This document shows positions 8,104 through 36,083 of a DNA stretch of 64,000 nucleotides, piece by piece. Made by a program: the position numbers and the translations under genes. Every line of letters starts with the position of its first letter. Position 1 is the stretch's first letter. Source of the DNA: Saccharicrinis fermentans DSM 9555 = JCM 21142 (GTDB lineage Bacteria > Bacteroidota > Bacteroidia > Bacteroidales > Marinilabiliaceae); NCBI RefSeq assembly GCF_000517085.1, contig NZ_KI912107.1, positions 752,425 to 816,424 on the forward strand, in the 5' to 3' direction. The notes beneath the pieces are model-generated. The model was not told the origin of the DNA, did no database searches, and worked only from the letters and a program-made list of their open reading frames with translations.

Positions 8104-8209
8104 GGTATAACTGATAACGGGCATGACCAGTGTATATAATGGGATGCACCGGTAGATGATAAAATTTGCAGAACTTAGTGAAGTTTTGCTATCTTTTCAT
8201 CATATGAAA
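8104..8209 (+). repeat. Dispersed structured module, type 2 (copy A2)
   Basis: Aligned from ATAACTG through GGCATGACCAG, GGT-ATGAT and TTAGTGAAGTTTTGCTA to CATATGAAA, it is a diverged match to the type 2 modules at 26329-26430 and 35895-35996 (minus strand). It joins end to end with a type 1 module at the shared CATATGAAAC. Confidence 0.65.
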
Positions 8210-8299
8210 CGAGCCATGGGAATGGATTCACACACAGGTGAATGATTATCACGGCGAGTTCCATATGACCATTAAGAAACAAATTATAAACATATGAAA
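8201..8299 (+). repeat. Dispersed structured module, type 1 (copy A1)
   Basis: Outer arms CATATGAAACGAGCC (8201-8215) and GGCGAGTTCCATATG (8253-8267) form an imperfect inverted repeat (12 of 15 positions). Inside, ATTCAC (8226-8231) pairs with GTGAAT (8238-8243) around ACACAG. The 3' tail ATGACCATTAAGAAACAAATTATAA ends in CATATGAAA. The final ATG opens only a four-codon frame here. It lies just upstream of the purB promoter. Confidence 0.75.
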
Positions 8300-8307
8300 A
8301 AGTTCTA

Positions 8308-8338
8308 ATTTTCCTTTCGACAAATTTTGCTAATTTTG
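8308..8338 (+). promoter_or_regulatory. Promoter of purB
   Basis: TAATTTTG at 8331-8338 matches the Bacteroidota -7 box TAnnTTTG. The -33 element is weak (a T tract near 8308). Transcription would begin about 20 bases before the start codon. Confidence 0.55.
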
Positions 8339-8363
8339 CAGCTTAAAATTATAAATATTGATG

Positions 8364-9707
8364 ATGGACATACAGTTATTAACGGCAATTTCTCCTGTCG
8401 ACGGAAGATATAGAAGTAAAGTTGATGGTTTAGCACTATATTTCTCAGAATATGCATTAATTAGGTATAGAGTGCTGGTTGAAATAGAATATTTCATTGC
8501 ACTGTGCGAACAACCACTACCGCAGTTGGCTGATTTTGATAAAAGCCTATATGAGAATTTACGAAATATTTATAAGGAATTTCAATTGGAGGATGCGGAG
8601 CGAATTAAAGAAATAGAATGTGTTACCAACCATGACGTTAAAGCTGTAGAGTACTTTATCAAGGAAAAGTTTGATGTGCTTAAGCTGGAGCAGTACAAAG
8701 AGTTTATTCATTTTGGTTTAACCTCGCAGGACATTAATAATACAGCTATTCCTTATTCTTTAAGAGATGCTGTAAATGATTATTATTATCCTTTGTTGGA
8801 AGAGTTAATCGATCAATTGGCTGAATTGGCCGAGGACTGGAAAGAGATTCCGATGTTGGCCAAGACTCATGGACAGCCTGCTTCACCTACTCGTCTTGGA
8901 AAGGAGATGATGGTGTTTGTACAGCGTTTACAAAAGCAATTATCTTTGTTAAAAGGTATTCCTTGTTCGGCTAAGTTTGGTGGAGCAACAGGAAATTTTA
9001 ATGCACATAAAGTGGCCTATCCAAATATTAATTGGATTGATTTTGGAAATCATTTTGTAAATGATATTTTAAAATTAGACAGAGAGCAGTATACTACCCA
9101 AATATCTAACTACGATAATCTGGCTGCTATATTTGATAACTTGAAACGTATTAATACCATAATGATAGATCTTTCCAGAGATTTTTGGACCTACATTATG
9201 ATGGAATATTTTAAACAAAAAATCAAAAAAGGAGAGGTGGGCTCAAGTGCTATGCCACATAAGGTTAATCCTATTGATTTTGAAAATGCTGAAGGTAATT
9301 TGGGTATTGCCAATTCTGTTTATGAACATTTGGCGGCTAAGTTACCTGTGAGCCGTTTGCAGCGCGATCTGACTGATTCTACAGTGTTGCGAAACGTAGG
9401 GGTGCCTATTGCTCATACTGTTATTGCCATTAAGTCCTTGCAAAAAGGGTTGGGTAAGTTATTGCTCAACAAAGATGCCATTGCCAATGATCTGGAAAAA
9501 AATTGGGCAGTGGTGGCTGAAGCTATTCAGACTATCTTGCGACGGGAGGCCTACCCTAATCCTTATGAGGCATTAAAGGCATTGACGCGTACCAACGAAG
9601 GAATCAATGCAAAAACCATTGCAGAGTTTATAACAACCCTCGATGTTTCGGATGAAATCAAGGAAGAACTTAGAGCTATCACACCTCAATCTTACACAGG
9701 AATGTAA
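8364..9707 (+). CDS. purB: Adenylosuccinate lyase
   Basis: Adenylosuccinate lyase acts twice in purine synthesis, removing fumarate from SAICAR and from adenylosuccinate. The 447-residue product opens LLTAISPVDGRYRSK, the standard PurB start, has the TSQDINNTA and KTHGQPASPT motifs, and carries the fumarase/aspartase signature SSAMPHKVNPIDFE. ATG codons at 8361 and 8364 are adjacent; 8364 is preferred because it aligns with the E. coli N-terminus. It has its own promoter and a terminator 24 bases after the stop, so it is probably monocistronic. Confidence 0.95.
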   Translation: MDIQLLTAISPVDGRYRSKVDGLALYFSEYALIRYRVLVEIEYFIALCEQPLPQLADFDKSLYENLRNIYKEFQLEDAERIKEIECVTNHDVKAVEYFIKEKFDVLKLEQYKEFIHFGLTSQDINNTAIPYSLRDAVNDYYYPLLEELIDQLAELAEDWKEIPMLAKTHGQPASPTRLGKEMMVFVQRLQKQLSLLKGIPCSAKFGGATGNFNAHKVAYPNINWIDFGNHFVNDILKLDREQYTTQISNYDNLAAIFDNLKRINTIMIDLSRDFWTYIMMEYFKQKIKKGEVGSSAMPHKVNPIDFENAEGNLGIANSVYEHLAAKLPVSRLQRDLTDSTVLRNVGVPIAHTVIAIKSLQKGLGKLLLNKDAIANDLEKNWAVVAEAIQTILRREAYPNPYEALKALTRTNEGINAKTIAEFITTLDVSDEIKEELRAITPQSYTGM

Positions 9708-9730
9708 GCACGAGTACACAATATTTTTTG

Positions 9731-9771
9731 AAGTCAGCTACGTTAAAGTTACTTTAGCAGCTGACTTTTTT
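9731..9771 (+). terminator. Rho-independent terminator after purB
   Basis: AAGTCAGCT (9731-9739) pairs with AGCTGACTT (9759-9767), with further pairing inside (TTAAAGT/ACTTTA) and a T run at the end. Confidence 0.85.
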
Positions 9772-9788
9772 AATGTACAAATTCAAGA

Positions 9789-11609
9789 ATGAAAGATTTT
9801 TTTAAGGTTTTACGACGATTTATTCCTCCCTATAAACGCCATTTGGTGTTGAGTTTTGTATTTAATGTGCTGCATTCTGTTTTTGGAAGTATAGCCATGT
9901 TATTTTCCATTCCTATATTTCAAGTTCTTTTTGATAAAACAAAGGAAGTGAGTGAGCTTGTTGCCTGGGAGCTTACACAAGATGCCGTGGTGAATAATTT
10001 TTACTATTTCGTGACACAGTTCAAAAATGAATATGGTATTATGGCAGTGATGCCATTGGTGGGGGTGTTATTGCTTTTTGCTACATTTTTAAAAGTGAGC
10101 TTTTCTTACCTGGCTTCACACCAGACTGTGTCCATACGCAATGGGGTGGTGAAAGATATGCGTATGCAAATTTTTGCTAAACTAATTGCTTTGCCTTTGG
10201 GTTTTTATTCTGATGAAAAAAAAGGAGATGTGATGGCTAGGGCTACAGGTGATGTAACGGAAGTAGAGAATTCTATTATGTCTTCGCTGGATATGCTGAT
10301 AAAGAATCCGATCATCATCTTAGTGTCGGTGGGTTTTATGCTTAGTATTAGTTTTCAATTGACTCTTTTTGTATTTGTTATGTTGCCTATTGCCGGTTGG
10401 GTGATTGGTAAAACAGGTAAGTCTCTTAAAACAAAATCCAGGGTGTCTCAATCGTTGATGGGTAGTATTTTGGGAACCATTGAGGAAACGATTGGTGGCC
10501 TGCGTATTGTAAAGGCTTTTAATGCGGAAGACAGAATGATGGAGCGCTTCGAAAAGGAAGCCGAGGATTATAAAAGAATTATGGATAAGGTGCGTAGACG
10601 ATATGTGATGGCGCATCCTCTTAGTGAGTTCCTGGGTACCATTGTGGTGGTTGTACTGGTTTGGTTTGGTTCTTATATTGCTACCAGTGAAAATTCTACT
10701 TTCGATGGAGCCTCTTTTATAGCTTATTTGGGTATATTTTATCAAATTATTAATCCTGCCAAGCAGTTTTCTACTGCCTTTTTTAATATACAGAAAGGAT
10801 TGGCTGCCATGGAGCGTATCGACAAAATCTTATTGGCAGATAATAAAATATTGGAGCAGGATGGAGCTAAAAAGGTAAAATCGTTCCGAAATATTATTGA
10901 GTATAAGAACGTGAGTTTTGGCTATAATGAACATCGGGTTCTTAAAAATGTATCTTTATCTATTGAAAAAGGTAAAATGGTTGCCCTAGTAGGACAGTCA
11001 GGATCAGGAAAAACTACCTTTGTTGACTTGTTACCCCGTTTTCATGATATTCAGGAGGGAAGTATTACCATTGACGGGGTCGATATTCGCGATATGAGAG
11101 TGCATGACCTGCGAGGGCTAATGGGCAACGTGAATCAGGAAGCCATTTTGTTTAATGATACCTTTTTTAATAATATCGCTTTTGGGGTAAGAAATGCAAG
11201 CCGCGAACAAGTGGAAAAAGCTGCTAAGGTGGCCAATGCCCATGATTTTATTTCAGCTAGCGAACATGGCTATCAAACTTTGGTCGGGGATAGGGGAGGT
11301 AAGCTTTCTGGTGGCCAACGACAGCGTATTAGTATTGCCCGTGCTGTGTTAAAAAATCCCGATATACTTATTTTAGATGAGGCTACATCCGCCTTGGATA
11401 CGGAATCGGAAAAGATGGTGCAAGAAGCCTTGGAGAATTTAATGAATTCCCGAACTTCAATAGTTATAGCACATAGACTTTCAACGGTTCGTAATGCGGA
11501 TTTGATATGTGTTTTTAGTGAGGGAGAAATTGTGGAAAAAGGAAGCCATGAGGAATTATTGGCACAAGGAGGTACTTATAGTAAACTACATGAACTCCAA
11601 GTGAGATAA
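9789..11609 (+). CDS. ABC exporter, MsbA-like (membrane and ATPase domains fused)
   Basis: The protein has 606 residues. Six membrane helices lie in residues 1-330 and an ATPase domain in about 365-600. Walker A GQSGSGKTT, Q loop, signature LSGGQRQR, Walker B ILILDEATSALD and the H loop IVIAHRLS are all intact, so it works as a homodimer. The closest functional group is MsbA-like lipid or lipid A flippases, but drug and peptide exporters look alike at this level. It follows the purB terminator closely and probably uses a promoter inside or next to it. No adjacent membrane-fusion partner is present. Confidence 0.88.
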   Translation: MKDFFKVLRRFIPPYKRHLVLSFVFNVLHSVFGSIAMLFSIPIFQVLFDKTKEVSELVAWELTQDAVVNNFYYFVTQFKNEYGIMAVMPLVGVLLLFATFLKVSFSYLASHQTVSIRNGVVKDMRMQIFAKLIALPLGFYSDEKKGDVMARATGDVTEVENSIMSSLDMLIKNPIIILVSVGFMLSISFQLTLFVFVMLPIAGWVIGKTGKSLKTKSRVSQSLMGSILGTIEETIGGLRIVKAFNAEDRMMERFEKEAEDYKRIMDKVRRRYVMAHPLSEFLGTIVVVVLVWFGSYIATSENSTFDGASFIAYLGIFYQIINPAKQFSTAFFNIQKGLAAMERIDKILLADNKILEQDGAKKVKSFRNIIEYKNVSFGYNEHRVLKNVSLSIEKGKMVALVGQSGSGKTTFVDLLPRFHDIQEGSITIDGVDIRDMRVHDLRGLMGNVNQEAILFNDTFFNNIAFGVRNASREQVEKAAKVANAHDFISASEHGYQTLVGDRGGKLSGGQRQRISIARAVLKNPDILILDEATSALDTESEKMVQEALENLMNSRTSIVIAHRLSTVRNADLICVFSEGEIVEKGSHEELLAQGGTYSKLHELQVR

Positions 11610-11763
11610 TATTATTATTGTCTGGTTGTACTGATGTTAAGCATCTTTATTTTGGGCAATGAGATATCTTCTTTTATGGTGTTTCTGTGAAGTAAGTGGG
11701 TTTGGCTTGATTGTTATATGGAGCCGATGGGAAAGAACTTATTTGAAAATTTGATGAAATAGG
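11610..11763. other. Gap before the WD40 gene, no gene seen
   Basis: No open frame with convincing composition and no clear terminator. It leads directly into a type 1 repeat module. Confidence 0.4.
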
Positions 11764-11859
11764 TAAAATGAGCCCTAAGAGCATTGTTCTAACTTGGGAG
11801 GATGATTTGCTGCGAAGCGCTCTATATGACCTTTGAAAGAAAAATATTAACCTATGAAA
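11764..11859 (+). repeat. Dispersed structured module, type 1 (copy B)
   Basis: It aligns with copy A1 over GAGCC, GATGATT and ATATGACCTTTGAAAGAAAAATATTAA, then ends CCTATGAAA. The left part is diverged. The ATG of the terminal ATGAAA (11854) is the start codon of the secreted WD40 gene. Confidence 0.65.
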
Positions 11860-13017
11860 TATTTTATTTTAGCATGTGTTTTTTTGTGTGCTGTACAAAC
11901 AGTTTGGGCACAGGAAGATGAGTATTTTGTTCAGCTCCTAAAAAAAGGGAACGGTAGGGTGAATGCCATTGATGTTAATGAAGCTAATACCATGTTGCTA
12001 CTGGGTGCTGAAAATAAATCGGCGTCTGTTTATGATTTGAACAGTAAAAAAGTAGTATTTGAAGTTGAAGCGCATTATCAGCCGGTTATTGATGTGAAAT
12101 TTTCAAAGGAGGAAGACGTTTTTTATACCATTGGAGACCGAAGCGTAAAAGTATGGAAAATAGGTGACGAAAAGCCTGATAAGATATATACGGGTACCCT
12201 AATCAATATGACTTCATGGAGTATTACGCCCGATGAAAACTATTTTGTAGCCTCTTCCTACAATAAAAAGTATTGTTATTGGGAGGCCTCGCAATTAAAA
12301 GCAGTGAAAGAGGTGGAGACTGGTCACAAAAAAAATATGATAGCAGTGGCGATAAGTAATGATCATAAATGGGTGGTTACCGGAGCTCTGGATACGTCTA
12401 TTGAAGTGTGGAACTTGCAAGCGGATAAAAGAAAGCATTTATTACTGGCACATTCAAGACCTGTTTCTTGCGTTGAATTTGTAAATAATAATAAGCATAT
12501 TATTTCGGCTTCTCATGATGGGAATGCTCGTCTATGGGATATGGAGTCTGGTCAAGCTATTAAAATGTACTTGGGGCATAGTCTTCCTATTAGTTCCATA
12601 GCAGTTAATCCTAATGGTAAGTTTCTTTTAATGGCCTCGTATGATCATACCATCGGATTGTTTAATATTGCTACAGGTGAGCGGATTCATGTTTATGAAG
12701 CACATGAAGCTCCTGTATTGGATGTGGTATGGAACCGTCAGGGTAACGGATTCTATTCTTGCGATAAGGATGGCAATGTAATGGAGTGGACCGTTCCTGA
12801 TAAGGTATTTGTGGATTTTTATTTTGGAAAAAAGATAGCATCAGAATTGGAAGAGAGCAAGCTCTTACTGCCCAGAAAAAAAGGCGAAGCGAAAGATGTA
12901 TACAAAGACCGACAGACTAACGCAGAAAAACTAAAAAATAAATTGCAGGATAAATATTATTTGGAGTATCTGGAGCTGGAGCGTACTTTTATTATTGGTG
13001 ATTTGATAGAAAATTAG
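11854..13017 (+). CDS. Secreted WD40 repeat protein
   Basis: The protein has 387 residues: a signal peptide (MKYFILACVFLCAVQTVWAQ), then about six or seven WD40 blades (about 35-315) with repeated H-x-x-x-V/I...WD/WN/LWD endings, and a charged C-terminal tail (about 325-387) likely helical. WD40 propellers scaffold protein interactions; exported ones are common in Bacteroidota but poorly characterised. No enzymatic motif is present. The start codon is the terminal ATG of the upstream repeat module. The next gene in the same direction, a secreted DUF1080 protein, starts the same way 312 bases further on. Confidence 0.82.
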   Translation: MKYFILACVFLCAVQTVWAQEDEYFVQLLKKGNGRVNAIDVNEANTMLLLGAENKSASVYDLNSKKVVFEVEAHYQPVIDVKFSKEEDVFYTIGDRSVKVWKIGDEKPDKIYTGTLINMTSWSITPDENYFVASSYNKKYCYWEASQLKAVKEVETGHKKNMIAVAISNDHKWVVTGALDTSIEVWNLQADKRKHLLLAHSRPVSCVEFVNNNKHIISASHDGNARLWDMESGQAIKMYLGHSLPISSIAVNPNGKFLLMASYDHTIGLFNIATGERIHVYEAHEAPVLDVVWNRQGNGFYSCDKDGNVMEWTVPDKVFVDFYFGKKIASELEESKLLLPRKKGEAKDVYKDRQTNAEKLKNKLQDKYYLEYLELERTFIIGDLIEN

Positions 13018-13240
13018 ATTATTCAAACATGAGGTTTTGGGGAGGTTCTTGTGTGTTGGGGTCAACTTGCCGATGTAATTGGTCCGATCCAAGTTGGTTT
13101 CTCTTTGAAGCTTTTTTATCAAAGACAGAAAAAACATTGGTTTTCTTGCAGCCACTAGATAGAAGGAGCCATGCAGTTGTGTTTAGTATGAAAAGAGTTG
13201 GTTAGTCATGGAAATAGGATTGATAAGTGGATGTTTTTTC
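13018..13240. other. Gap between the WD40 and DUF1080 genes containing a second repeat family
   Basis: Apart from the repeat at 13117-13173 and the type 1 module starting at 13241, nothing recognisable is present. A minus-strand frame across 12931-13155 is low-complexity and is not accepted as a gene. Confidence 0.4.
13117..13173 (+). repeat. Second dispersed repeat (R2), copy 1
   Basis: TATCAAAGACaGAAAAAAC, a 4-base spacer, then GTTTTCTTGCAGCCACTA match 16563-16615 almost exactly on both sides of the spacer, which itself differs (ATTG versus GGTC). AAAAC and GTTTT form a small hairpin. It has no evident terminator role here. Confidence 0.7.
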
Positions 13241-13335
13241 ATATATTAACCGTGAAGAACAATGCTTTTTGTAGGGAATGATGGATCCTGGCAGGTTCCA
13301 TACGGCCTTTGAAAGATAAATTTAATCATATGAAA
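13241..13335 (+). repeat. Dispersed structured module, type 1 (copy C)
   Basis: Begins CATAT, retains AATGAT, and from GGTTCCATACGGCC onward follows the type 1 consensus through TTGAAAGATAAATTTAATC to CATATGAAA. The terminal ATG (13330) is the start codon of the DUF1080 gene. Confidence 0.65.
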
Positions 13336-14199
13336 GTAAAAATATTACTGTTGGTTTTTGCCGTAATTACAGCAGGTAACTTAAGGGCTCAAAAAACACC
13401 TAAAGTAAAATATCCGGCTAATAAAGTTAAATCTAAAGACTGGAAAGTTCTATTGGATAAAGACCTTACAAGCTGGGAGGTGTGGACGGGTGTTCCCCAT
13501 AAATCAATCAAGAATCTGCCCGAAGGTTATCAACAAGAGTCCAATGGTGAAAATAAGCAAGCAGTGGGTTTAGGTGATCCATTCAATTTATTTACCGTTC
13601 GTACAGATGACAATGGAGAGCATGTTTTGCATATCTCAGGACAGACTTTTGGCGGGCTTACTTCTCTTAAATCATATTCCAACTATCATCTTACCATGCT
13701 TTTTAAGTGGGGAGAAAATAAATATGAGCCTCGTATTGATAAACAAAGAGATTGTGGTTTGTTGTATCACTGCCATGGAGAACATGGAGCCTTTTGGAAT
13801 GTTTGGAAATCCTGTCTGGAATTTCAAATTCAAGAAAGAGATTTTGGTGATTTGTTTACATTGGCCGGAACCAAGGCCAAAGTTAGAGTAAATGAGCAGA
13901 AACGTTGGGATCCTACTTCTGATCGTATTCAAAAAAATGGGAAACGATCTTTTGATGCTGAGAGTCCGCATGGACAATGGACACGTGTTGATTTATATGT
14001 AATAGGAGATAAGGCCATACATGTAACCAATGGAGTGGTTGTTTTAGCCTTGACAGATGGCACGTCAAAGGACGGAGATAAATTGGTTGCTGGGCAAATT
14101 CAGATACAATCTGAAGGCGCAGAGTGTTATGCAAAGGATATCTGCATTCGACCTATTACTAAGTTTCCGAAAAGGATTCTAAAAGCAGCCGCTTTGTAA
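13330..14199 (+). CDS. Secreted DUF1080 (3-keto-disaccharide hydrolase-like) protein
   Basis: The protein has 289 residues from the ATG at 13330. A longer frame opening 21 bases upstream is rejected because MKVKILLLVFAVITAGNLRAQ is a complete signal peptide and the upstream bases belong to a repeat module. The mature part has the DUF1080 concanavalin-like pattern: WKVLLDKDLTSWEVW, LHISGQTFGGLTS, NYHLTMLFKWGE, RDCGLLYHCHGE and a C-terminal beta region with IQIQSEGAECYAKDI. Family members bind or cleave sugar substrates in the periplasm; the catalytic role of this one is unproven. Confidence 0.85.
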   Translation: MKVKILLLVFAVITAGNLRAQKTPKVKYPANKVKSKDWKVLLDKDLTSWEVWTGVPHKSIKNLPEGYQQESNGENKQAVGLGDPFNLFTVRTDDNGEHVLHISGQTFGGLTSLKSYSNYHLTMLFKWGENKYEPRIDKQRDCGLLYHCHGEHGAFWNVWKSCLEFQIQERDFGDLFTLAGTKAKVRVNEQKRWDPTSDRIQKNGKRSFDAESPHGQWTRVDLYVIGDKAIHVTNGVVVLALTDGTSKDGDKLVAGQIQIQSEGAECYAKDICIRPITKFPKRILKAAAL

Positions 14200-14352
14200 A
14201 ATTACATGTCCTTTTCGCCGGGAGGTTTATTGTTTAAAGCAGGAAAATGTATTAAAGCTTGGTAATATACTTTCTAATGCGTTTTTTTTGCTTTTAACGC
14301 TTTATGAGATCTTTGGCCTTCCGATGTTATGTCAGTCTTAAAATAAATAATG

Positions 14353-16011: not shown

Positions 16012-16231
16012 TGCAAGGGCGTTTTTAAAAGCAGTGAATGTAATAATTTTAATTTATAAAATTAAAAAATGAGGGTATGGCGTGTGAAATTATAAGATTT
16101 TAACGTGTGGGGTGTAAGCACGTTGGTTTGTATGGGTATATTGTGGATGGGGACGAATAGGGGGCAATATAAAAGAGGGGTATTTGTTTGAAGCAAATAT
16201 GTTTGTAATGATTGATCTTTTATAATATGGT

Positions 16232-16462
16232 TTATTTTTTAGCTGAAGGCATCTTTGAACAGGTTCTTATGTAAATTTCCATAAGAGCCTGTTCCTTATC
16301 TAATATATAAAATAGCCGGGAAGGATGCATACAAGTATAGGTAATTAGTCTTTGCAAGAAAACTCCAAATACTGCGTTATTCTCATTTTTGAAACAGTCA
16401 TTTACAATCAGTAAACTCCTTGGTTTCAAAAATATCGAAAGCCTTGTCTTTGAAGCTTTCAT
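16232..16462 (-). CDS. Uncertain 76-residue reading frame behind a type 1 module
   Basis: The frame starts at the ATG that ends a type 1 module (MKASKTRLSIF). The translation matches nothing I recognise, has no signal or membrane segment, and near its end contains a 15-base inverted repeat (GAACAGGTTCTTATG at about 16258 and CATAAGAGCCTGTTC). The inverted repeat argues that the stretch may be non-coding RNA rather than a gene. Listed because at other loci the same module precedes genuine genes. Confidence 0.3.
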   Translation of the reverse strand: MKASKTRLSIFLKPRSLLIVNDCFKNENNAVFGVFLQRLITYTCMHPSRLFYILDKEQALMEIYIRTCSKMPSAKK

Positions 16463-16552
16463 ATGATTATAATTTGTCTTTCAATGGTCATATGGAACTC
16501 CCGATGAATTTTAATCATTCTTCTGTGTGTATTTTAGAATGCTAAAATTCAT
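16457..16552 (-). repeat. Dispersed structured module, type 1 (copy D)
   Basis: The outer stem is a perfect 10-bp inverted repeat (ATGAATTTTA 16504-16513 with TAAAATTCAT 16543-16552). The inner stem is CATTCT 16516-16521 with AGAATG 16536-16541, around a loop holding CACACAG. On the minus strand the 3' tail GAGTTCCATATGACCATTGA then AAGACAAATTATAATCATATGAAA matches the consensus. The arm sequences differ from copy A1 while the pairing is kept. Confidence 0.75.
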
Positions 16553-16562
16553 GTTCGTTTCT

Positions 16563-16615
16563 TATCAAAGACTGAAAAAACGGTCGTTTTCTTGCAGCCA
16601 CTAATTAGGCGCATG
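16563..16615 (+). repeat. Second dispersed repeat (R2), copy 2; possible ndk terminator
   Basis: It matches 13117-13173. Read on the minus strand it gives AAAAC-gacc-GTTTTTT, a short hairpin with a T run, 55 bases after the ndk stop codon, so it could terminate ndk. Confidence 0.65.
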
Positions 16616-16669
16616 CTATGGTCTGATATTCCCTTAGCATTACCTTTGTCTTGTATTGCTTTTGTATTA

Positions 16670-18389: not shown

Positions 18390-18933
18390 AAGCGTAAGTA
18401 TTGTTGCTCTGTCGTTACTTATTATGGGTGGATGTAAGTTGCAAAGTAGTGATAAACCATTAAAACGTAAAGTAACTGCTGAGGAGCTTATCTCGGTGAA
18501 TAGATATATGGTGGAACAGGACGCTTCGGCCATTAAAGAATACGTGGAAAGAAACGATTATCATATGTTGGAAACTCAGACTGGCCTTTGGTATCAAATT
18601 GAAGAGATGGGGGAAGGTGAGTTGGTACAGAAAGGGGACGTGGTTAAAATTGCCTATGATGTTTCCCTATTGGATGGAACGCATTGTTATTCGTCAGATT
18701 CATTGGGTTATAAATCTTTTAAGGTTGGTCAAGGAGGTGTTGAGTCTGGTTTAGAGGAAGGGATCTTATTGCTGCGTAAGGGAGCTAAGGCAACTTTTAT
18801 TATGCCTCCACATAGGGCACATGGTTTAGTGGGCGATGATGATAAAGTGCCAGGAAGATCTACTCTTTTATATAAAGTTGAGTTGGTCGATCTGAAACGA
18901 GCCATGGGAATGGATTCACACACGGGGGGATGA
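18379..18933 (+). CDS. FKBP-type peptidyl-prolyl isomerase lipoprotein, GldI-like
   Basis: The product is about 184 residues. The start at 18379 is chosen for the A-rich leader; 18361 is possible and gives a longer basic N-region. The signal peptide ends at a lipobox-like IMGGC, making it an envelope lipoprotein. The FKBP domain (about 75-175) has GDVVKIAYDVSLLDGT, VESGLEEGILLLRKG and FIMPPHRAHG. GldI proteins of this type are needed for gliding and T9SS function in Flavobacterium; overlap with an nrnA-like gene supports that reading. The last residues, KRAMGMDSHTGG, are encoded by a type 1 repeat module, so the native C-terminus was probably replaced or extended. Confidence 0.8.
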   Translation: MNYKSVSIVALSLLIMGGCKLQSSDKPLKRKVTAEELISVNRYMVEQDASAIKEYVERNDYHMLETQTGLWYQIEEMGEGELVQKGDVVKIAYDVSLLDGTHCYSSDSLGYKSFKVGQGGVESGLEEGILLLRKGAKATFIMPPHRAHGLVGDDDKVPGRSTLLYKVELVDLKRAMGMDSHTGG

Positions 18934-18987
18934 TTAATTATGGCGAGTTTCGTATGACCATTGAAAGAAAAATATAATCATATAAAA
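18893..18987 (+). repeat. Dispersed structured module, type 1 (copy E), overlapping a gene end
   Basis: TGAAACGAGCCATGGGAATG and the following GATTCACACAC are identical to copy A1. Outer arms GAAACGAGCCAT and ATGGCGAGTTTC pair with two mismatches. The tail ATGACCATTGAAAGAAAAAT then ATAATCATATAAAA lacks the terminal ATG. The left arm forms the end of the FKBP coding sequence. Confidence 0.75.
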
Positions 18988-19246: not shown

Positions 19247-21667
19247 TTAACCCTGAACTAAGTCAAGTACTTTGGTGTCTGCAGCAACAGTATCACCCAC
19301 TTCAACAAATATTTCGTTAACCGTACCGGCAAAGTCAGATGAAATACTGTTTTCCATTTTCATGGCCTCAAGAATAACAACAACTTGACCTTTGTTTACC
19401 TGATCGCCTGGTTTTACTTGTATATCAAGGATTTTGCCTGGCATTGGCACTGTAACCGCTTTTGTTGGACCTGTAGCTTTAGGAGCTGCTTTAGGGGCCG
19501 CTTTTTCTGTACTGGTAGCAGGGGACACAGGCTGATCCACAACATTCATAATGGCAGTGTCAGCAGCAACGGTCTCGCCTTCTTCTACTATTAGAGAGTT
19601 TACATATCCAGCATAGTTTGAGGTGATGCTGTTTTCCATCTTCATAGCTTCCAATATGGCAACAGGCTGATCTTTCTCGATTTTGTCACCTTGTTTTACA
19701 AGATATTGTAGAACTTTACCAGGCATCGGAACAGTAATCGATTTCGCAGGTCTTGTTGCTTTTTGTGCAGCTTTCGCTGTTTCATTTGGAGTAGTAGAAG
19801 TGGCAGATGGAGTTACAGGTTCGCTTACGATATCCATAATGGCAGTGTCGGCTGCGACAGTTTCACCTTCGTCTACAAGCAGAGAATTTACATAGCCAGC
19901 ATAATTGGATGTAATACTATTTTCCATTTTCATAGCTTCTAAAATAGCTATTGGCTGATCTTTTTCTACTTTGTCACCTGGTTTTACAAGATATTGTAAA
20001 ATTCTGCCTGGCATTGGAACAGTAATTTTTTTACCGCTTACTTTTTTTACTGCTTTGGGAGCTTCAGAGCTAGCTTCTTTTGTTGCTGGATTGTTGGCTT
20101 GTTTGGCTTCCCATGCAGCTTTCTTAACACCTTTCAGGTAGTTTTTGGCTACCATTGGGAATAATTCAAGCAATAACACTTCTTCTTCGTTTTCGGCTAG
20201 TTTAACGCCTCCAAATTCATCTAATACAGGGTTTGGCTGCATTTTATAAGTAGAAGTATCAAACGGACGTTCATCTTTGTGTCCACATATTTTTTCACGG
20301 AAGTCTGGATCCACAGGAATAGGTGTTTCACCATACTCACCTTTAACCAGACTAATAAACTGGTTAGATACGTTGGTATACATCGCACTTCCTTTTTTAG
20401 TGTCCATGGCACAGTTTACTGCCTGAGCACCTACGATCTGACTAGTGGGAGTTACCAATGGAGGTAAACCTGCGTCTAAACGTACTTGAGGAATCAGTTT
20501 CATGGCGTCTTCCAGAATATCTTCTGATTTAAGAGCCTTCAACTGTGCAACCATGTTGGTATACATTCCTCCAGGTATCTGCGCATTTTTAACCAATTCA
20601 TTTGGTTTAGGGAAATTAAAATAAGCTTCAATGGCATGGCAAGAACGTACTAATTCTTGTTCATCACCTTCTTTGGCATTTTTAATCGCCTTGTCAAATT
20701 CGGCTTCAATTTCTGCAGGAAGTGTGTCTGTGAGAGGATTAAATGGATTTGGGTAGTTTTTACCAGCGTCCACATCCGCTAATTCTTGGCGTATATTATA
20801 TAATTCTTTGTTGATTTTAGCAACCGCTTCCATGTTTACATCCATTTCAATACCTAATTTTTTTGTGAATAGGTATATTAATTCAATGGCAGGAGCAGCT
20901 GGTCCACCAGCAAAGTTCCAGATGTTAGTATCTACCACATCAGCACCTGCTATGATAGCAGATAATACAGCTGCTAGTCCATAGCCTGGCGTACAGTGTG
21001 TGTGAAAATCAACAGGTACTTGAACCGCTTTTTTGAACTCACTCACTAATTTTGTAACGCGCATTGGAGGAATTAAACCACTCATATCTTTGATCGTGAT
21101 CATATCAGCTCCTAACTTCTCAAGTTCTTTGGCCTTGTTTACAAAATATTCGTCTGTAAATACTGGCTTAGGTAGTGATTTTTCGTCTTGTGAAGTTGAA
21201 GCAGTCTTGTAATCTGGATCAATGGTGTAACAAACAGCACAGTCTGCAATACCACCGTGTTCTTTTACATATTTAATGGTGGATTTTACATTGTTGATAT
21301 CGTTGAGCGCATCAAAAATACGCATAATACCTAACCCAGAACTAATTGCATTTTTACAAAAACCATCAATGATGTCATTGGTATATGGCGTATATCCAAA
21401 TAAGTTTCTTCCGCGTGAAAGTGCAGTAAGCTTGCTGACGTCTCCTACGGCTTTTTTGATGGACTGAAGACGTGTCCATGGGTTCTCGTTTAAGTAACGC
21501 ATTACAGAGTCTGGTACGGCTCCACCCCAAACTTCCATTGCATAAAAGTTCGCATCCTTGTAAAAAGGTAAAACGCGATCAATTTGCTCTTGTCGCATTC
21601 TGGTTGCAAATAACGACTGCTGACCATCTCTGAGTGTTAGGTCTCGTATCAATAATTTCTTTGACAT
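19247..21667 (-). CDS. PycB/OadA-type carboxyltransferase with three tandem biotinyl domains
   Basis: The protein has 806 residues. The carboxyltransferase TIM barrel (about 5-300) starts RDLTLRDGQQSLFATRM and carries the catalytic-site segments MEVWGGA, MITIKDMSG and DFHTHCTPG; a PYC_OADA region follows (to about 500). Then come three biotin-attachment domains, about 548-610, 644-706 and 738-806, each with an AMKM biotinylation site (K580, K676, K770), joined by Ala/Pro/Lys/Thr linkers. Relatives normally have one. The first two domains are near copies. The enzyme moves CO2 between biotin and pyruvate/oxaloacetate; whether it acts as a carboxylase or Na+-pump decarboxylase cannot be told, as no biotin carboxylase or beta subunit is nearby. 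Confidence 0.88.
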   Translation of the reverse strand: MSKKLLIRDLTLRDGQQSLFATRMRQEQIDRVLPFYKDANFYAMEVWGGAVPDSVMRYLNENPWTRLQSIKKAVGDVSKLTALSRGRNLFGYTPYTNDIIDGFCKNAISSGLGIMRIFDALNDINNVKSTIKYVKEHGGIADCAVCYTIDPDYKTASTSQDEKSLPKPVFTDEYFVNKAKELEKLGADMITIKDMSGLIPPMRVTKLVSEFKKAVQVPVDFHTHCTPGYGLAAVLSAIIAGADVVDTNIWNFAGGPAAPAIELIYLFTKKLGIEMDVNMEAVAKINKELYNIRQELADVDAGKNYPNPFNPLTDTLPAEIEAEFDKAIKNAKEGDEQELVRSCHAIEAYFNFPKPNELVKNAQIPGGMYTNMVAQLKALKSEDILEDAMKLIPQVRLDAGLPPLVTPTSQIVGAQAVNCAMDTKKGSAMYTNVSNQFISLVKGEYGETPIPVDPDFREKICGHKDERPFDTSTYKMQPNPVLDEFGGVKLAENEEEVLLLELFPMVAKNYLKGVKKAAWEAKQANNPATKEASSEAPKAVKKVSGKKITVPMPGRILQYLVKPGDKVEKDQPIAILEAMKMENSITSNYAGYVNSLLVDEGETVAADTAIMDIVSEPVTPSATSTTPNETAKAAQKATRPAKSITVPMPGKVLQYLVKQGDKIEKDQPVAILEAMKMENSITSNYAGYVNSLIVEEGETVAADTAIMNVVDQPVSPATSTEKAAPKAAPKATGPTKAVTVPMPGKILDIQVKPGDQVNKGQVVVILEAMKMENSISSDFAGTVNEIFVEVGDTVAADTKVLDLVQG

Positions 21668-25956: not shown

Positions 25957-26334
25957 TTATTTAGCTGCAATGGTTTCGATTTCTACTTTTACACCGAGGG
26001 GGAGTGCTTTGACTGCAAAAGCTGCCCGGGCTGGAGGATTTTCTTTGTAGTATCTTCCATAGACCTCGTTCATTGCTTTAAAATCATCCATGTCTGCCAA
26101 TAAACAAGTTGACTTAATGACATCCGAAAAAGAATATCCTGCTTGCGTTAAAATGGCGTCGATATTACGCATCACTTGCTCAGTTTGTGCTGTTATATCC
26201 TCCGCTTCAACTTTTCCTGTTGAGGGATTAATGGGGACTTGTCCGGATATATACAACATTCCATTTACTTCAACAGCTTGACTGTATGGTCCAATGGCAG
26301 CAGGTGCGTTTTCTGTGTTGATAATTTTTTTCAT
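25957..26334 (-). CDS. ridA: RidA family reactive-intermediate deaminase
   Basis: The 125-residue protein has the whole YjgF/YER057c/UK114 core: IGPYSQAVEVNGMLYISGQVP, the active-site Arg in NPPARAAFAV, and the C-terminal VEIETIAAK. It hydrolyses enamine/imine intermediates from PLP enzymes, protecting them from damage. The start codon is the ATG that ends a type 2 repeat module. A hairpin (TTGCAGCT and AGCTGCAA, 25948-25970) spans the stop codon and may end transcription. Convergent with the SLC13 gene. Confidence 0.94.
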   Translation of the reverse strand: MKKIINTENAPAAIGPYSQAVEVNGMLYISGQVPINPSTGKVEAEDITAQTEQVMRNIDAILTQAGYSFSDVIKSTCLLADMDDFKAMNEVYGRYYKENPPARAAFAVKALPLGVKVEIETIAAK

Positions 26335-26430
26335 GTGAGTAAAAATTAGCGAAACTTTATTAGCCAGTACAGGTTTTAATCATTCACTTGTGTGTCCAAT
26401 TGTTTGCGCTGGCCATGTCAGTTTTATATG
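26329..26430 (-). repeat. Dispersed structured module, type 2 (copy F)
   Basis: On the minus strand it runs CATATAAAACTGACATGGCC, then GACACACAAGTGAATGATT, then GGCTAATAAAGTTTCGCTAA and ends CACATGAAA. It is roughly four-fifths identical to the type 2 copy at 35895-35996 by eye. The terminal ATG is the ridA start codon. Confidence 0.78.
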
Positions 26431-29305: not shown

Positions 29306-29732
29306 GCCATGATATAGTTTGTGTTTAGTAACAGTCAATGAAATAGCGATTTTGTGATTCAAATTGGCACAAAAATAAATAAAAATTGGTGACACCATTG
29401 GTTTATTTTATAAAATAAGCGATGCACCTTAACAATGTTTTCAAAGGTTTTCGTTAAAACAGTTTGAGACGAAACAAAAATGATACCATAAAACAGCCAA
29501 TCAACTTAAAAGAATCGTTCTTTCGGATGCTTACATGACCCGATTGTTTTGACGGTATTTATTGCGTGTTTTTTTTATCATTCATTATTTTTGTGAATAA
29601 ATAAAGCGAAAAATACGTATTCGTTTATATAATTACTAAATTTATTGATGGGCCTAAAGTGATAATATATTAATTAAAGCTATTTTTGACGATTCTGTTA
29701 GTATTAAAGTGCGAATAAAACGAGGAATGACA
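29306..29732. promoter_or_regulatory. Divergent control region between lptD and the amidase gene
   Basis: A 427-base AT-rich gap. On the minus strand TATTTTTG at 29370-29377 is a candidate lptD -7 box. On the plus strand TATTTTTG at 29586-29593, with ATTG at 29561-29564, is a candidate amidase promoter with a leader of about 135 bases. No gene or repeat module seen. Confidence 0.5.
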
Positions 29733-30818: not shown

Positions 30819-30905
30819 CGCATGGGGTAATGAACAACTCTTATCTGGTGTGGGGGCATCGGGTACATGTGAATGGCTAGGCCGGTAATGAAAAAAATGA
30901 TAACC

Positions 30906-31901: not shown

Positions 31902-32091
31902 ACCTTGAATTGAACTTTTTTTAAAAAAATTCCTATTGACATTGTCATATTTATGTAAGTTATTTGCTGTTAAGCATGATGCTAATATGGAGTTACTTTA
32001 TTGATCATGCTTAAATTGTTAAATTCATTGTTGTATTGTCTTACAGGTGGTTTTGCAGCAAGTTTTGTTAAATGTAAATAATTAGTGGATA

Positions 32092-32907
32092 ATGGAAAAA
32101 GTAATGGAATTTTTTACTGAATCGAAGGATGTTATTATTACGTATGGAGGTCAACTCGTACTGGCAATATTAACGCTTATTATTGGTTTTTGGATCATTG
32201 GAAAGATTACCAATGTCATGAAGAAGATGTTTGAAAAGAAGGGTTTTGATGAAACACTTCAACCTTTTTTAATTGGGCTACTTAATAGCTTGTTGAAAAT
32301 TATGTTGATTATCAGCGTGATGACAATGGTGGGTATTGAAATGACTTCTTTTGTGGCTATATTGGCAGCCGCTGGTTTAGCCGTTGGAATGGCTCTTTCA
32401 GGTACCCTCCAGAATTTTGCAGGGGGTGTTATGTTGTTGATACTGAAACCGTTTAAAAAAGGTGACTTTATTGAGGCCCAAGGCTATGCTGGCGTGGTGG
32501 ATGAGATACAAATTTTTGTGACTAAACTAAAGACTTTGGATAACAGAAATATTTATATACCCAACGGAGGATTAGCAACCAGTAGCTTAATTAATTTTTC
32601 ACAAGAACCGACACGTAGAGTAGATTTTTCTTTTGGTATTGGTTATGGAGATGATATTGATAAAGCGAAGAAAATCATTGCCGATGTAATTGATGCAAGC
32701 GGCAAGGCGCTTGCCGATCCTGCTCCGTTTATAGCAGTAGGAGAGTTGGCGGATAGCTCTGTTAACCTTACCACTCGAGTATGGGTTAAATCGCCAGATT
32801 ATTGGAGTTTGTTTTTTTATATGAACGAAAATGTTAAAAAAGAATTCGACAAGCAAGGTGTTTCCATTCCTTTCCCACAAACAGATGTGCATTTGTTTAA
32901 GGAATAA
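32092..32907 (+). CDS. mscS: Small-conductance mechanosensitive channel, MscS family
   Basis: The protein has 271 residues, close to E. coli MscS. Three membrane helices lie at about 15-40, 60-82 and 90-115, with TM3 carrying the Ala/Gly-rich pore pattern ILAAAGLAVGMALSGTLQNFAGGVMLL. The cytosolic cage (about 120-271) has KPFKKGDFIEAQGYAGVVDEI and the NIYIPNGGLATSSLIN motif. It opens on membrane tension to release solutes in hypo-osmotic shock. Monocistronic, with a terminator just after it. Confidence 0.93.
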   Translation: MEKVMEFFTESKDVIITYGGQLVLAILTLIIGFWIIGKITNVMKKMFEKKGFDETLQPFLIGLLNSLLKIMLIISVMTMVGIEMTSFVAILAAAGLAVGMALSGTLQNFAGGVMLLILKPFKKGDFIEAQGYAGVVDEIQIFVTKLKTLDNRNIYIPNGGLATSSLINFSQEPTRRVDFSFGIGYGDDIDKAKKIIADVIDASGKALADPAPFIAVGELADSSVNLTTRVWVKSPDYWSLFFYMNENVKKEFDKQGVSIPFPQTDVHLFKE

Positions 32908-32928
32908 GTGATATTTTATACAGTTTCG

Positions 32929-32967
32929 CGGGCTTTAATTGCATTTGTCGATTAAAGCTCGTTTTTT
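32929..32967 (+). terminator. Terminator after mscS
   Basis: CGGGCTTTAAT (32929-32939) pairs with ATTAAAGCTCG (32951-32961), followed by TTTTTT. Confidence 0.85.
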
Positions 32968-33030
32968 GTATACTGGATTGGGACAAGATGCTTTTAGTCA
33001 AACAATTATAAATTAAACTAAACGATAAAG

Positions 33031-33912
33031 ATGAGAAAGTGTATTCTAATTGTATTTTTATGCTTTATTACCATGGTCTCTTGGGCACAGGAGGTAAAAA
33101 ATGATTCTATTCAATATTGGAAGTCAGGAGCTACTACTTCCTTGAACTTCTCGCAGGTTTCGCTGACTAACTGGGCCGGTGGAGGAAATAACTCAGTGGC
33201 TGCCACTTTTTTGTTTAAAGGATATTTAAATCATAAGAAAGGAAAATTGGCCTGGGATAATACCTTGGATGTGGGGTATGGAATTACCAAAACCGGAGAT
33301 TATAAAATGGCTAAATCGGAGGATAGATTCCAGTTTACTACTAAATTGGGTTACGAAAATGGAAATCATTGGTTTTATTCAGGTATGGCAGATTTTAAAA
33401 CTCAATTTGCGGTGGGGTATAAGGACCCTTTGGTACAGGCTACTAAAATTTCGGAGTGGATGGCTCCGGGTTATTTGCAGTTTTCATTGGGTATGGATTA
33501 CAAGCCTTCTGAAAACTTTTCCATGTTTATTTCTCCTATTGCCTCTAAAATAACATTTGTGTTAAACGATTCTCTGTCCAATGAGGGAGCTTTTGGAGTG
33601 GAAGCTGGAGAAAGTACCAGAAGTGAATATGGTGCTTCTATTAAGCTGTTGGCACAAAAGAAAGACTTGATTAAGAATGTTAATGGCTATACTCGCCTGG
33701 ATCTTTTTTCCAATTATGAGAGTGCACAAAATGTGGATGTGGATTGGGAGTTTGGTTTTGATATGAAAGTAAATAAATTTTTAAGTGCAGTATTTAAGAC
33801 AAATATTCTTTACGATGATGATGTAAGTTACGTCGATGACCAAGGAGAGAGTAAAGGACCTAAGGTTCAGGTAAAACAATTGTTTGGTGCAGGATTGACT
33901 TATTCGTTTTAA
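33031..33912 (+). CDS. DUF3078 outer-membrane beta-barrel-like protein
   Basis: The protein has 293 residues. The signal peptide (MRKCILIVFLCFITMVSWAQ) is followed by the DUF3078 opening WKSGATTSLNFSQVSLTNWAGGG and alternating beta strands, ending LTYSF with a C-terminal aromatic as in outer-membrane barrels. The domain is Bacteroidota-specific and of unknown function. It is flanked by terminators on both sides, so it forms its own unit. Confidence 0.85.
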   Translation: MRKCILIVFLCFITMVSWAQEVKNDSIQYWKSGATTSLNFSQVSLTNWAGGGNNSVAATFLFKGYLNHKKGKLAWDNTLDVGYGITKTGDYKMAKSEDRFQFTTKLGYENGNHWFYSGMADFKTQFAVGYKDPLVQATKISEWMAPGYLQFSLGMDYKPSENFSMFISPIASKITFVLNDSLSNEGAFGVEAGESTRSEYGASIKLLAQKKDLIKNVNGYTRLDLFSNYESAQNVDVDWEFGFDMKVNKFLSAVFKTNILYDDDVSYVDDQGESKGPKVQVKQLFGAGLTYSF

Positions 33913-33962
33913 CCCTAAAGGTGCATCAGAAAATATATTAAGTTTTGAATCTAATTTTTAAT

Positions 33963-33995
33963 AAAAAGCCCGGAGCATAGTTTCCGGGCTTTTTT
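33963..33995. terminator. Bidirectional terminator between DUF3078 and sulfatase genes
   Basis: AAAAAGCCCGGA and TCCGGGCTTTTT pair perfectly around GCATAGTT, with A and T runs on both sides serving both converging genes. Confidence 0.9.
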
Positions 33996-34037
33996 ATTAA
34001 CTTGTAAAGTATATCATCATGCAATATTGCTGATTGC

Positions 34038-35900
34038 TCAGGAGATTATATTCAGATATTTGAGTCGCTGTTGTACCATCTTGTTTTCTTGTGTAGTCGT
34101 TGGTATTTGGTCTAGTTGTATATCAAATTTATACTTGTGGCTACCGTCTTTCATTAAAACAATGGAGTTTAGTATTAAGAGCGCTTCATTACTATCTTTA
34201 GATGTATATAGAGCATGTGTCATTACTTTTGAAGGGTTTTCGATACCGGTCATGCCTAAAAATTCTGCGGCTCTAACGCGGTTCATCAATTCCTTATCTT
34301 CTTGGGCAATGTTTTTAATGAGGGCAGCAAACTCTTTGGCTTCATTTTCAAATTTTGTACAAACAATCAAAGCCCAATATCTACTTAGCCAGTCATCAGA
34401 TTTTAATAAGTCGGATAATTGACTTTTTGCTTCATTAAAAGGAAGGAGTTCTAGGTTTGCGATGTCAATGTATTTATTAATTTGTGCTTTATTTTTTTGT
34501 CCAAAAGCCACAGGGTTATCAAAAGCATTTTTGATAAGATAATACTCAGGATAGAACGATAAATCAGGCATGCTTTTGAGCTTGTTAGTAAGTCTTTCTC
34601 GCATTTCTAATAATGTAGTCTTGTAATTTTCGTTGTTTATCAAGTTGACAGTTTCAAATGGATCAGCTTCAACATCGTATAAGGCTTCTGCGGGTTTTGT
34701 GTGAAAGAATTGATCTTGTATCTCGTTGAGTTTTTTGTCTTCATGCATCTGTGCCCATTGTTGGTATGCCAGTTGTTTATATCTATAGTTGTTCATGAGT
34801 CCATCATAATTGAAAGGTTCAAAATGGCGAATGTATTTGTATTTTCCTTTTCTGATGGCTCTTACCATGTCGTATTTCTCGTCGAATCTATCGGCATAAC
34901 TGAATGTTTCGTCTCGATTATTAAGTTCTTCTTCTGAAATGTTCTTACCTAGGAATGGTTTGCCATCTATTCCCTTGGGTATTTCAACACCGGCCAGATT
35001 AAGTATGGTGGCTCCAAAGTCAACGAAGCTTACAAAACCATCGTTTTTGGTTCCTGGTTTGATATTTACAAGATGCTCATATTTTTTAGGGATATGTACT
35101 ACTAGAGGTACGTGTAATCCGGTCTCGAACAAATATCCCTTACTGCCGGGTAATACACCACCATGGTCGCCGTAATAAAATACGAAAGTATTTTCCAGTA
35201 GGCTGTCTTTCTTAAGTTCAGCAAGTATGTCGCCCACTTGGCGATCCATTTCCATGATTTTATCCCGATACCAAGCATTGGTATACTTCATCAGTTTAGT
35301 ATTGGGGTGATTGGGTTGTACAAAACACTTGTCAGGATCGGTTTCTGTTTTTTTTGTTTCAAAGTCTTCTTTTGAAAAGTGTAAGCAGCCTTCATGGGTC
35401 GTACCAATATTTTGGACGTAGAAAAATGGCTGGCCTGGTTTTCGGTTGCGCCAGTGGGCTTTTTTACTGGACTCGTCCCATACACTGTCTGATTTAATAA
35501 TATTGTAATCTTCTTTGTTGTTGTTGCCGGTATAATATCCGGCAGCTTTTAAATAAGCCGGGTACATCTCAATGCCTTGGGGCATGGGTACTTTTTCTAA
35601 TTTTCGGTGGTAGTGAGATGCCATTCTGGGGCCGTAACACCCAGAGATTAATGTTGAACGTGCGGCACTGCAAACAGCTGCATTTGAAAATGCATGGGTG
35701 AACACAACGCCGTTTTCTGCTAGAGAGGCAATGTTAGGGGTTGGAACACCATGTTCATCAAACATATCCATATAGTGTTTGGAATTATCTTCAGACGTTA
35801 TCCAAACAATGTTGGGATGTTCTTTCTCTATTTTCGCCTTTTTACAAGCGGAGAATGCCGATATTAGAGCGGCAAATAGCAAAAGCTTTGAAAGTTTCAT
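34038..35900 (-). CDS. Sulfatase (formylglycine-dependent, alkaline phosphatase fold) lipoprotein
   Basis: The protein has 620 residues. The lipoprotein signal ends at SAFSAC (C19). HPNIVWITSEDNS starts the metal site, and C77-S-A-A-R81 in NAAVCSAARST is the CxAxR site converted to formylglycine, as in family S1 enzymes. FVFYYGDHGGVLPG supplies the second metal ligands. It probably removes sulfate from glycans in the periplasm; the heparan/N-sulfatase-like (S1_8-type) group is the nearest by appearance. A helical C-terminal region (about 470-600) looks HEAT-like. No other polysaccharide-utilisation gene is adjacent. Its start is the ATG that ends a type 2 module. Confidence 0.88.
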   Translation of the reverse strand: MKLSKLLLFAALISAFSACKKAKIEKEHPNIVWITSEDNSKHYMDMFDEHGVPTPNIASLAENGVVFTHAFSNAAVCSAARSTLISGCYGPRMASHYHRKLEKVPMPQGIEMYPAYLKAAGYYTGNNNKEDYNIIKSDSVWDESSKKAHWRNRKPGQPFFYVQNIGTTHEGCLHFSKEDFETKKTETDPDKCFVQPNHPNTKLMKYTNAWYRDKIMEMDRQVGDILAELKKDSLLENTFVFYYGDHGGVLPGSKGYLFETGLHVPLVVHIPKKYEHLVNIKPGTKNDGFVSFVDFGATILNLAGVEIPKGIDGKPFLGKNISEEELNNRDETFSYADRFDEKYDMVRAIRKGKYKYIRHFEPFNYDGLMNNYRYKQLAYQQWAQMHEDKKLNEIQDQFFHTKPAEALYDVEADPFETVNLINNENYKTTLLEMRERLTNKLKSMPDLSFYPEYYLIKNAFDNPVAFGQKNKAQINKYIDIANLELLPFNEAKSQLSDLLKSDDWLSRYWALIVCTKFENEAKEFAALIKNIAQEDKELMNRVRAAEFLGMTGIENPSKVMTHALYTSKDSNEALLILNSIVLMKDGSHKYKFDIQLDQIPTTTQENKMVQQRLKYLNIIS

Positions 35901-35996
35901 GTGTTTAAAAAATTAGCGAAACTTTACTAACCAGCGCATATTTTAATCATTCACCTGTGTGTCAAATTATTTGCTCTGGCCATGCCAGTTTCATAT
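35895..35996 (-). repeat. Dispersed structured module, type 2 (copy G2)
   Basis: Minus strand: CATATGAAACTGGCATGGCC then AGAGC, GACACACAGGTGAATGATTA, and GGTTAGTAAAGTTTCGCTAA, ending CACATGAAA. CTGGC-ATG-GCCAG is a perfect local hairpin. Its ATG is the sulfatase start codon. Confidence 0.8.
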
Positions 35997-36083
35997 GTTT
36001 ATAAATTATTTTCTAAGGCCATATGTAACTCGCCCGTATTAATCAAGGTCTTGTGTGTGGCTATTCCTATGGCTCGTTTTATG
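35988..36083 (-). repeat. Dispersed structured module, type 1 (copy G1)
   Basis: Minus strand: CATAAAACGAGCCATAGGAA, CACACA, then GGGCGAGTTACATATGGCCT and AATAATTTATAAACATATGAAA. It joins directly to the type 2 module, in the opposite order to the pair at 8104-8299. Confidence 0.75.

Follow-up and report, generated by a model that had tools for sequence, protein, structure and literature searches.

What are the short structured modules that recur across a 64,000-nt stretch of contig NZ_KI912107.1 of Saccharicrinis fermentans DSM 9555 = JCM 21142 (the whole of this stretch being the window, to whose positions all coordinates below refer), and what do they do to the genes before which they stand? 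An earlier note on this DNA had listed nine such modules (A2, A1, B, C, D, E, F, G2, and G1), each ending in ATGAAA or a variant, and had proposed either a non-autonomous mobile element or a regulatory leader cassette. Most probably, the modules are copies of a ~90-bp non-autonomous mobile element that mostly lands on start codons and replaces them. Two features had been missed before: the target is mostly a start codon, and the right end of the element has a pairing partner in a segment inside the element.

Two profile models (A and G2), built from copies of the window's own genome, were used for module detection, and all nine modules were recovered by them in the window scan, so that the nine modules listed before proved real. 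Two tail types defined two classes: (i) class A with A1, B, C, E, and G1, plus D as a related third class; and (ii) class G with A2, F, and G2. The modules lay on both strands, as had been observed, and the layout described previously (opening with CATATGAAAC, then nested stems around a CACACA loop, constant tails, and a final ATGAAA) was present, in the form of left ATGAAAC (decayed in several modules), nested stems, CACACAGG.GRATGATTRA loop, class-specific tail, and right-end ATGAAA; B and C were degenerate, and the left end of A2 was decayed. Module C was recognisable in its right part only (model 37-98), and under the A model only the right part of D was found, owing to a left half of a third type. 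The left-end 20-mer, allowing up to three mismatches, had three occurrences in the window versus a shuffle mean of 0.01.

Many further copies were found by the search of the genome and of Bacteroidota that the earlier note had suggested. In the own genome (5.98 Mb, 100% complete), the A-class right-half pattern (≤3 mismatches) gave 204 sites versus one for its reversed control, and the left-half pattern gave 345 sites versus 78; with 40 first-look candidates scored for each query, the A-class query had at least 57 matches and the G-class query at least 41, many of the latter partial. Among 61 near genomes, the own genome included, 31 had a match.

The exact insertion junctions came from the host repeat of D, a ~266-bp unit with 22-nt inverted ends, which was present in three states: (i) empty in loci L012, L071, and L022, with one junction in all three (..TTTGATAAGAAA|GCTTCAAAGAC..); (ii) holding one module (D) between GAAA and GCTTC in the window copy; and (iii) occupied by the D module and, behind it, by a young A-class unit in L049 and L050. 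Since the host repeat exists empty, single-filled, and double-filled, the first base of the element is the C that follows GAAA, its last bases are its own final ATGAAA, and the target is not duplicated. The unit thus spanned ~90 bp, from this C to the final CANATGAAA, and lay 3' of a target ending GAAA, most often the start-codon ATGAAA. The flanks of module E, when joined without the element, gave an in-frame C-terminus ..VELVDLKRHS-stop, while the protein ended ..LKRAMGMDSHTGG-stop with the element in place. The host repeat itself contained a hairpin whose loop was the module target, and it was related to the ends of an IS200-like gene of the REP-associated tyrosine transposase (RAYT) type in L010 (REP, repetitive extragenic palindrome). 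There, the matching left part of the host repeat stood directly before the frameshifted RAYT gene, and for this reason the host repeat looks like a non-autonomous derivative of that gene.

Thirty distinct copies at different places were ≥93% identical to the young consensus; in nine, identity reached 100% across the part that was aligned. They had the right end CATATGAAA, and the left target ended TGAAA in 29/30 and TGCAA in 1/30; the right-end ATG opened ≥60 codons in 26/30. An older element's right end was found directly upstream of 21 young copies (about three of them weakly) and an element directly downstream of one, so new units were mostly gene-proximal to older ones. In the window, A1 lay directly behind the G-class right end of A2 and had kept as its target ATGAAA 8204-8209, and the right-end ATGAAA of G1 (35989-35994) was the target kept beside G2. 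It is highly improbable that tandem units arose and spread through homologous recombination or gene conversion among existing leaders in place of transposition: the 21 young copies behind an older unit would fit such an origin, as would L039 and L075, whose G-class left half and A-class right half make them look like recombinants between the classes, but nine of the 30 young copies had no detectable older upstream unit (eight of the nine standing before frames of ≥60 codons), and empty copies of the host repeat exist. Erosion of the left half was considered as proof of relic status (17 right-only versus 4 left-only copies) and was left unused (five of the 17 belonged to the D class, two looked chimeric, and two lay at locus edges).

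Placement relative to genes was counted in 80 loci of the own genome, picked by matches and not at random, together with the window: 158 hits were merged into 107 arrays, 100 of them distinct, and an open frame served as proxy for a gene. The right end kept ATG in 80/100 arrays, and its frame was open for ≥60 codons in 70 (68 of these beginning with ATG) and for ≥100 codons in 64 (63 beginning with ATG). As control, 693 ATGAAA of the same loci were open for ≥60 codons in 25% and for ≥100 codons in 22%, and this control is conservative because the element ends themselves were among the 693. In the window, the right-end ATG started genes behind B, C, F, and G2 and none behind A1 and E; the genes behind modules were diverse. 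In other families of the order, 23/38 copies were open for ≥60 codons or to the stretch end, with interior array units counted, and 26/41 when three loci of the window's own family were added. Across 144 kb of the own genome (21 stretches, module copies being unmasked in 20), 25 ATGAAA lay at gene starts, 62 at other intergenic places, and 163 inside genes, which would put gene starts at ~29% of the non-coding sites. The gene-start preference is real; the 144-kb count cannot tell targeting from selection.

Orthologous loci were sought in eight genomes of the genus by searching with the N-terminal parts of 28 genes that bear an element, and the best match was taken as the orthologue. Among the listed matches, 90 stretches covered 19 of the 28 genes, and the two models detected a module in three and none in 87. 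Upstream alignment above background was obtained for 43 pairs at 10 loci. At the cleanest locus (L068), seven relatives had their start codon within 4-20 nt of where the left-end ATG stands, and the right-end ATG lay 90 nt further. This supports the left ATGAAA as the probable ancestral start codon, more weakly than the within-genome empty sites do. The mobile alternative of the earlier note was borne out by the exact empty and filled sites within one genome, by the young copies at 93-100% identity, and by these 87 module-free orthologous stretches.

Pairing was analysed in an A-class alignment (65 of 92 non-redundant copies) and a G-class alignment (26 of 27 copies). Three pairings were recognised in the 65 A-class copies: (i) P1, the left arm ATGAAAC..GCC with GGC..GTTCCAT, paired in 95.7% of cells; (ii) hairpin P2, paired in 78.2%; and (iii) P3, the guide TTCCATNTG with the right end CANATGAAA, paired in 94.4%, all three percentages leaning upward with the 27 copies left out being mostly the lowest-scoring. 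P1 and P3 are mutually exclusive, the guide being common to both. Pairing exceeded shuffles for P1+P2 (89.6 vs 88.1%) and for P2+P3 (88.3 vs 85.7%), with 0/500 shuffles as high in each case; the gain was small in percent because the columns were well conserved. The clearest signal came from tails fitting the strict pattern GAGTTCCATNTG..CANATGAAA, to which the guide counts were confined: guide N was complementary to right-end N' in 94/102 tails and in 59/67 distinct ones, against shuffle means of 64.2 and 34.1, and 0/5000 shuffles were as high. In other families of the order, the same complementarity held in 18/23 versus 7.9 in shuffles (0/10000 as high), and three of the five exceptions were in L350 and L351, which represented a variant class. 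The unconstrained alignment fold held nine pairs in the G-class, whose structure was more weakly supported. A conserved leader peptide was looked for as well: young A and many G copies read ..HTGE-stop, the D-class was without that frame (by eye), and no such peptide is claimed.

A young copy folded better than its shuffles at the RNA level (z -4.05) and at the DNA level (z -2.47), P1 being in both minimum-energy folds, and G-U outnumbered A-C pairs by 45 to 23 in P1+P2, with 9 to 14 in P3; given these folds and counts, the sense strand may act as mRNA, single-stranded DNA, or both. A regulatory leader that came first would make use of the same structures: the modules would be selected translation switches, with a CANATG start sequestered by the guide and freed when the guide pairs with the left arm, and would have spread by helping regulation. 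The covarying pairing does take in the start codon, and the stronger RNA fold and the G-U excess in P1+P2 point the same way. We nevertheless consider this origin unlikely: P3 itself had no G-U excess, the downstream genes were diverse, the right end of 30/100 arrays opened fewer than 60 codons, most orthologous genes were without a module, and copy E sat in the last codons of a gene and others in a mobile repeat. The leader cassette of the earlier note therefore stands as a consequence, in that the element usually becomes the 5' leader of the gene behind and gives it a start codon, and seems unlikely as the primary nature of the modules.

For the mobile element, the following course of events is proposed. 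The junctions show insertion 3' of a target ending GAAA without duplication; the old ATGAAA remains at the left, and the start codon is now the element's ATGAAA. The strand can form P1, or the guide GTTCCATNTG can pair instead with the right end CANATGAAA (P3), an alternation supported by the A-class covariation. Movement would proceed as single-stranded DNA; the guide would pair with the target/left junction and with the right end and would thereby place two cuts, as in IS200/IS605, the cutting enzyme being supplied in trans. After insertion, the old start codon would read a short frame that stops inside the element (after 13 codons in the young copy), and the A-rich initiation region of the element plus the new in-frame ATGAAA would restart the gene, so that gene-start hits survive. 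The putative P1/P3 switch may also tune translation.

IS200/IS605 elements insert 3' of a short fixed sequence with no target duplication, and they have a right end equal to the target and a structured strand. The module was alike in inserting 3' of a short fixed sequence with no target duplication, as read from the empty, filled, and double-filled host repeat, and likewise had a right end equivalent to the target and a structured strand. The guide/right-end pairing was backed by covariation in the A-class, with none seen in the G-class; internal guide sequences pair with the element ends in IS200/IS605, as described in PMC6006769. With separate subterminal hairpins at both ends as the IS200/IS605 pattern, the structure seen in the module was a single large stem (P1), the hairpin P2, and the right-end pairing P3, the tail being unstructured. 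The module differed from IS200/IS605 as follows: (i) no TnpA was found in or beside it; (ii) one A-class guide was able to pair with both ends; (iii) its length was ~90 bp; and (iv) the targets were mostly start codons, which the module re-supplied. An IS200/IS605-like single-strand transposition would appear to fit best; we make no claim to membership in IS200/IS605, since searches for its defining transposase found none.

Several results weigh against this reading as a whole or in part. As to the enzyme, (i) no transposase was found; (ii) none of 59 left halves (≤1 mismatch) was seen split around a gene, 37 of them having a right half within 85 bases among the matches listed and 22 lying in fetched loci; (iii) the own genome held four Y1 genes, fragmentary or with broken frames, even though the burst of young copies looks recent; and (iv) the element-bearing genomes G014, G022, and G023 had no Y1 match. 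As to pairing, (v) two of five P2+P3 covariation measures were not above shuffles (108 and 78 of 500); (vi) the unconstrained alignment fold kept only three A-class pairs; (vii) by eye, no P3-type pairing could be made out for the right end in the G-class alignment; and (viii) left-flank N did not clearly follow the guide (44/83 vs a shuffle mean of 38.7, 320/5000 as high), so that the guide is not visibly choosing a target beyond ATGAAA. As to the site, (ix) the D target was GAAA without ATG; and (x) measured from the conserved upstream block, the left-end ATG of the own genome and the relative's start codon agreed in position within 15 nt in only 13/43 pairs, the other pairs differing because intergenic lengths vary.

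An autonomous copy was also sought, and none split around a gene was found among the left- and right-half matches listed (left complete to two mismatches) plus 20 stretches. Two of the 22 loci just mentioned, L114 and L120, had the left part only, and inspection by eye of the 1.5 kb that followed revealed no frame resembling a transposase. A promising pair of halves 1.1 kb apart turned out to be two separate modules, each before its own gene, in a cluster read as Sus-like.

It seems quite unlikely that the module serves as REP-like partner to a Bacteroidota RAYT of TnpA-REP subclass 2.6 or to subclass 1.2. For subclass 2.6 genes, PMC6006769 describes atypical structures on the flanks, copies of which also occur at other places in the genome, and such structures would suit this partnership, as would the position of D inside a repeat related to RAYT gene ends and a module beside a RAYT in L298. 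The ends around the RAYT gene of L010, on the other hand, were a different repeat; a module or weak hit was present in only 5/54 stretches around Y1 genes (L011, L161, L177, L180, and L298; the 50 stretches of relatives scanned being part of the matches listed); and Y1 was found in 28/31 genomes with the element and in 23/30 without it, with no clear co-occurrence. The module resembled REPs and bacterial interspersed mosaic elements (BIMEs) with RAYTs in having many short structured intergenic copies per genome, but it was without a GTAG/GTGG foot (consensus, by eye), was longer, ended at ATGAAA, and, in most of the loci examined, showed no arrangement about a RAYT gene. With the own-genome Y1 genes fragmentary and few modules near Y1 genes, Y1/RAYT was set aside as the mover.

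Movement by an IS91-like Y2 transposase is, in our estimate, very unlikely. Y2_Tnp was found in 17/31 element-bearing versus 4/30 other genomes, and the own genome had eight copies with an equal score and a 433-codon frame; this association may follow phylogeny or IS richness, 14 of the 31 element-bearing genomes had no Y2 match, and the right end common to nine own-genome copies of the Y2 unit (..AAGGATAAAATCCTTATAAGTT) and the left end common to six (GTTGAACGAAAGCTC..) were unlike the module ends. Y2/IS91 was accordingly rejected as the mover despite a suggestive co-occurrence, the termini having been compared in own-genome copies only. The Y2 unit itself (L311-L319) was IS91-like, had nine near-identical copies with variable left ends, and carried a 280-codon integrase-like frame upstream of the transposase frame. 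IS110-type genes were found in 13/31 genomes with the element and in 8/30 without it.

Beyond the near genomes, a covariance model built from 65 A-class copies (cut-off E ≤ 1e-5, the E-values being rough) gave matches in 50/247 genomes of the order, the own genome included, under 38 family labels, many resting on one weak match. The exact right-half pattern was found in 30 stretches from named genomes, and the A model assigned a whole or partial module to 21 of them (including stretches from Breznakibacter xylanolyticus, Labilibacter sediminis, and Plebeiobacterium marinum), a short stretch only to two, and none to seven. Viral contigs gave no exact match to the A-class right-half pattern, near genomes being possibly outside that set. 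A longer variant was observed in L353, from a single-contig genome of another family (G248), as a tandem array with 131-base spacing and units ending ATGAAC or ATGAAA. Other small palindromes (CCCGAT..ATCGGG, CCCCGAA..TTCGGGG, and similar ones) were inserted in modules at recurring internal points in several genera (L271-L273, L279-L281, L353, and L355).

The suggestion that the family falls outside named ones held: Rfam 15 gave no match at gathering in the window and none at E ≤ 1 in five copy-rich loci, and the module had neither terminal inverted repeats nor target duplication. In these last two respects it differed from classical miniature inverted-repeat transposable elements (MITEs), with which it shared shortness, non-autonomy, and high copy number. 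Rickettsia palindromic elements are short mobile elements tolerated in genes since the reading frame is kept (PMC10969869); they are in-frame insertions within coding sequence, whereas the module site was mostly the start codon, which the module replaced. The literature search found no description of a comparable start-codon-targeting element, most subscription papers lying outside its reach. The modules could perhaps represent a new class of miniature element, a proposal we put forward tentatively, in which the start codon is the main target with insertion at (A)TGAAA, initiation of the host gene passes to the element's ATGAAA, a single guide pairs with the left arm or with the element's own start codon, one switch serves transposition and translation, and members occur in many families of one Bacteroidota order.

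Mobile elements usually avoid or break genes. The present element is apparently able to spread and yet leave intact the genes on which it lands, whose expression would be kept, and so one family seems to gain tolerance by replacing start codons, hundreds of times in its own genome and with relatives across the order. It rewrites both the 5' leaders of genes and their start contexts and is thus relevant to gene annotation, to leader evolution, and to start-codon recognition by a 90-bp element. It further supplies naturally occurring pairs of empty and filled sites along with a rule for base pairing, and implies a transposition enzyme beyond those found here.

The coordinates of the window features are collected in the table.

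Table. Modules of the window and the repeat that hosts D, with the extents matched by the profile models
Feature	Coordinates	Strand	Model match	Class and remarks
Module A2	8116-8209	+	8116-8209	G-class, old, left end decayed; right-end ATGAAA 8204-8209; G2 model 8-102, 54.5 bits
Module A1	8210-8299	+	8202-8299	A-class, 90-bp body from C to right-end ATGAAA 8294-8299; right end opens no gene (MKKF-stop)
Module B	11764-11859	+	11764-11859	A-class, degenerate; right-end ATGAAA 11854-11859 is the start of WD40-repeat gene 11854-13017
Module C	13274-13335	+	13274-13335	A-class; right-end ATGAAA 13330-13335 is the start of 289-aa gene 13330-14199 (3keto-disac_hyd)
Host repeat of D	16342-16607			MITE-like unit, 22-nt inverted ends 16342-16363 / 16586-16607
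Module D	16457-16557	-	16457-16530	Third class; right-end ATGAAA 16457-16462; 3' of GAAA (TTTC on + at 16558-16561); behind the right end a 76-codon frame only, inside the mobile repeat
Module E	18898-18987	+	18891-18986	A-class, 90-bp body, 3' of CTGAAA 18892-18897, in last codons of FKBP-type isomerase gene; right end starts no gene
Module F	26329-26421	-	26329-26430	G-class; right-end ATGAAA 26329-26334 is the start of gene 25957-26334 (Ribonuc_L-PSP)
Module G2	35895-35988	-	35895-35997	G-class, gene-proximal unit of tandem pair; right-end ATGAAA 35895-35900 is the start of sulfatase gene 34038-35900
Module G1	35989-36076	-	35989-36082	A-class, distal unit of tandem pair with G2; own left target ATAAAA 36077-36082

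Two further repeats were observed in the window: (i) direct repeats with a spacing of 282-288 bp at 19326-20026, inside the long frame 19247-21667, which suggest a protein with repeated domains; and (ii) a pair of 31-nt inverted repeats, 81% complementary, at 8057-8087 and 16181-16211, outside the modules.

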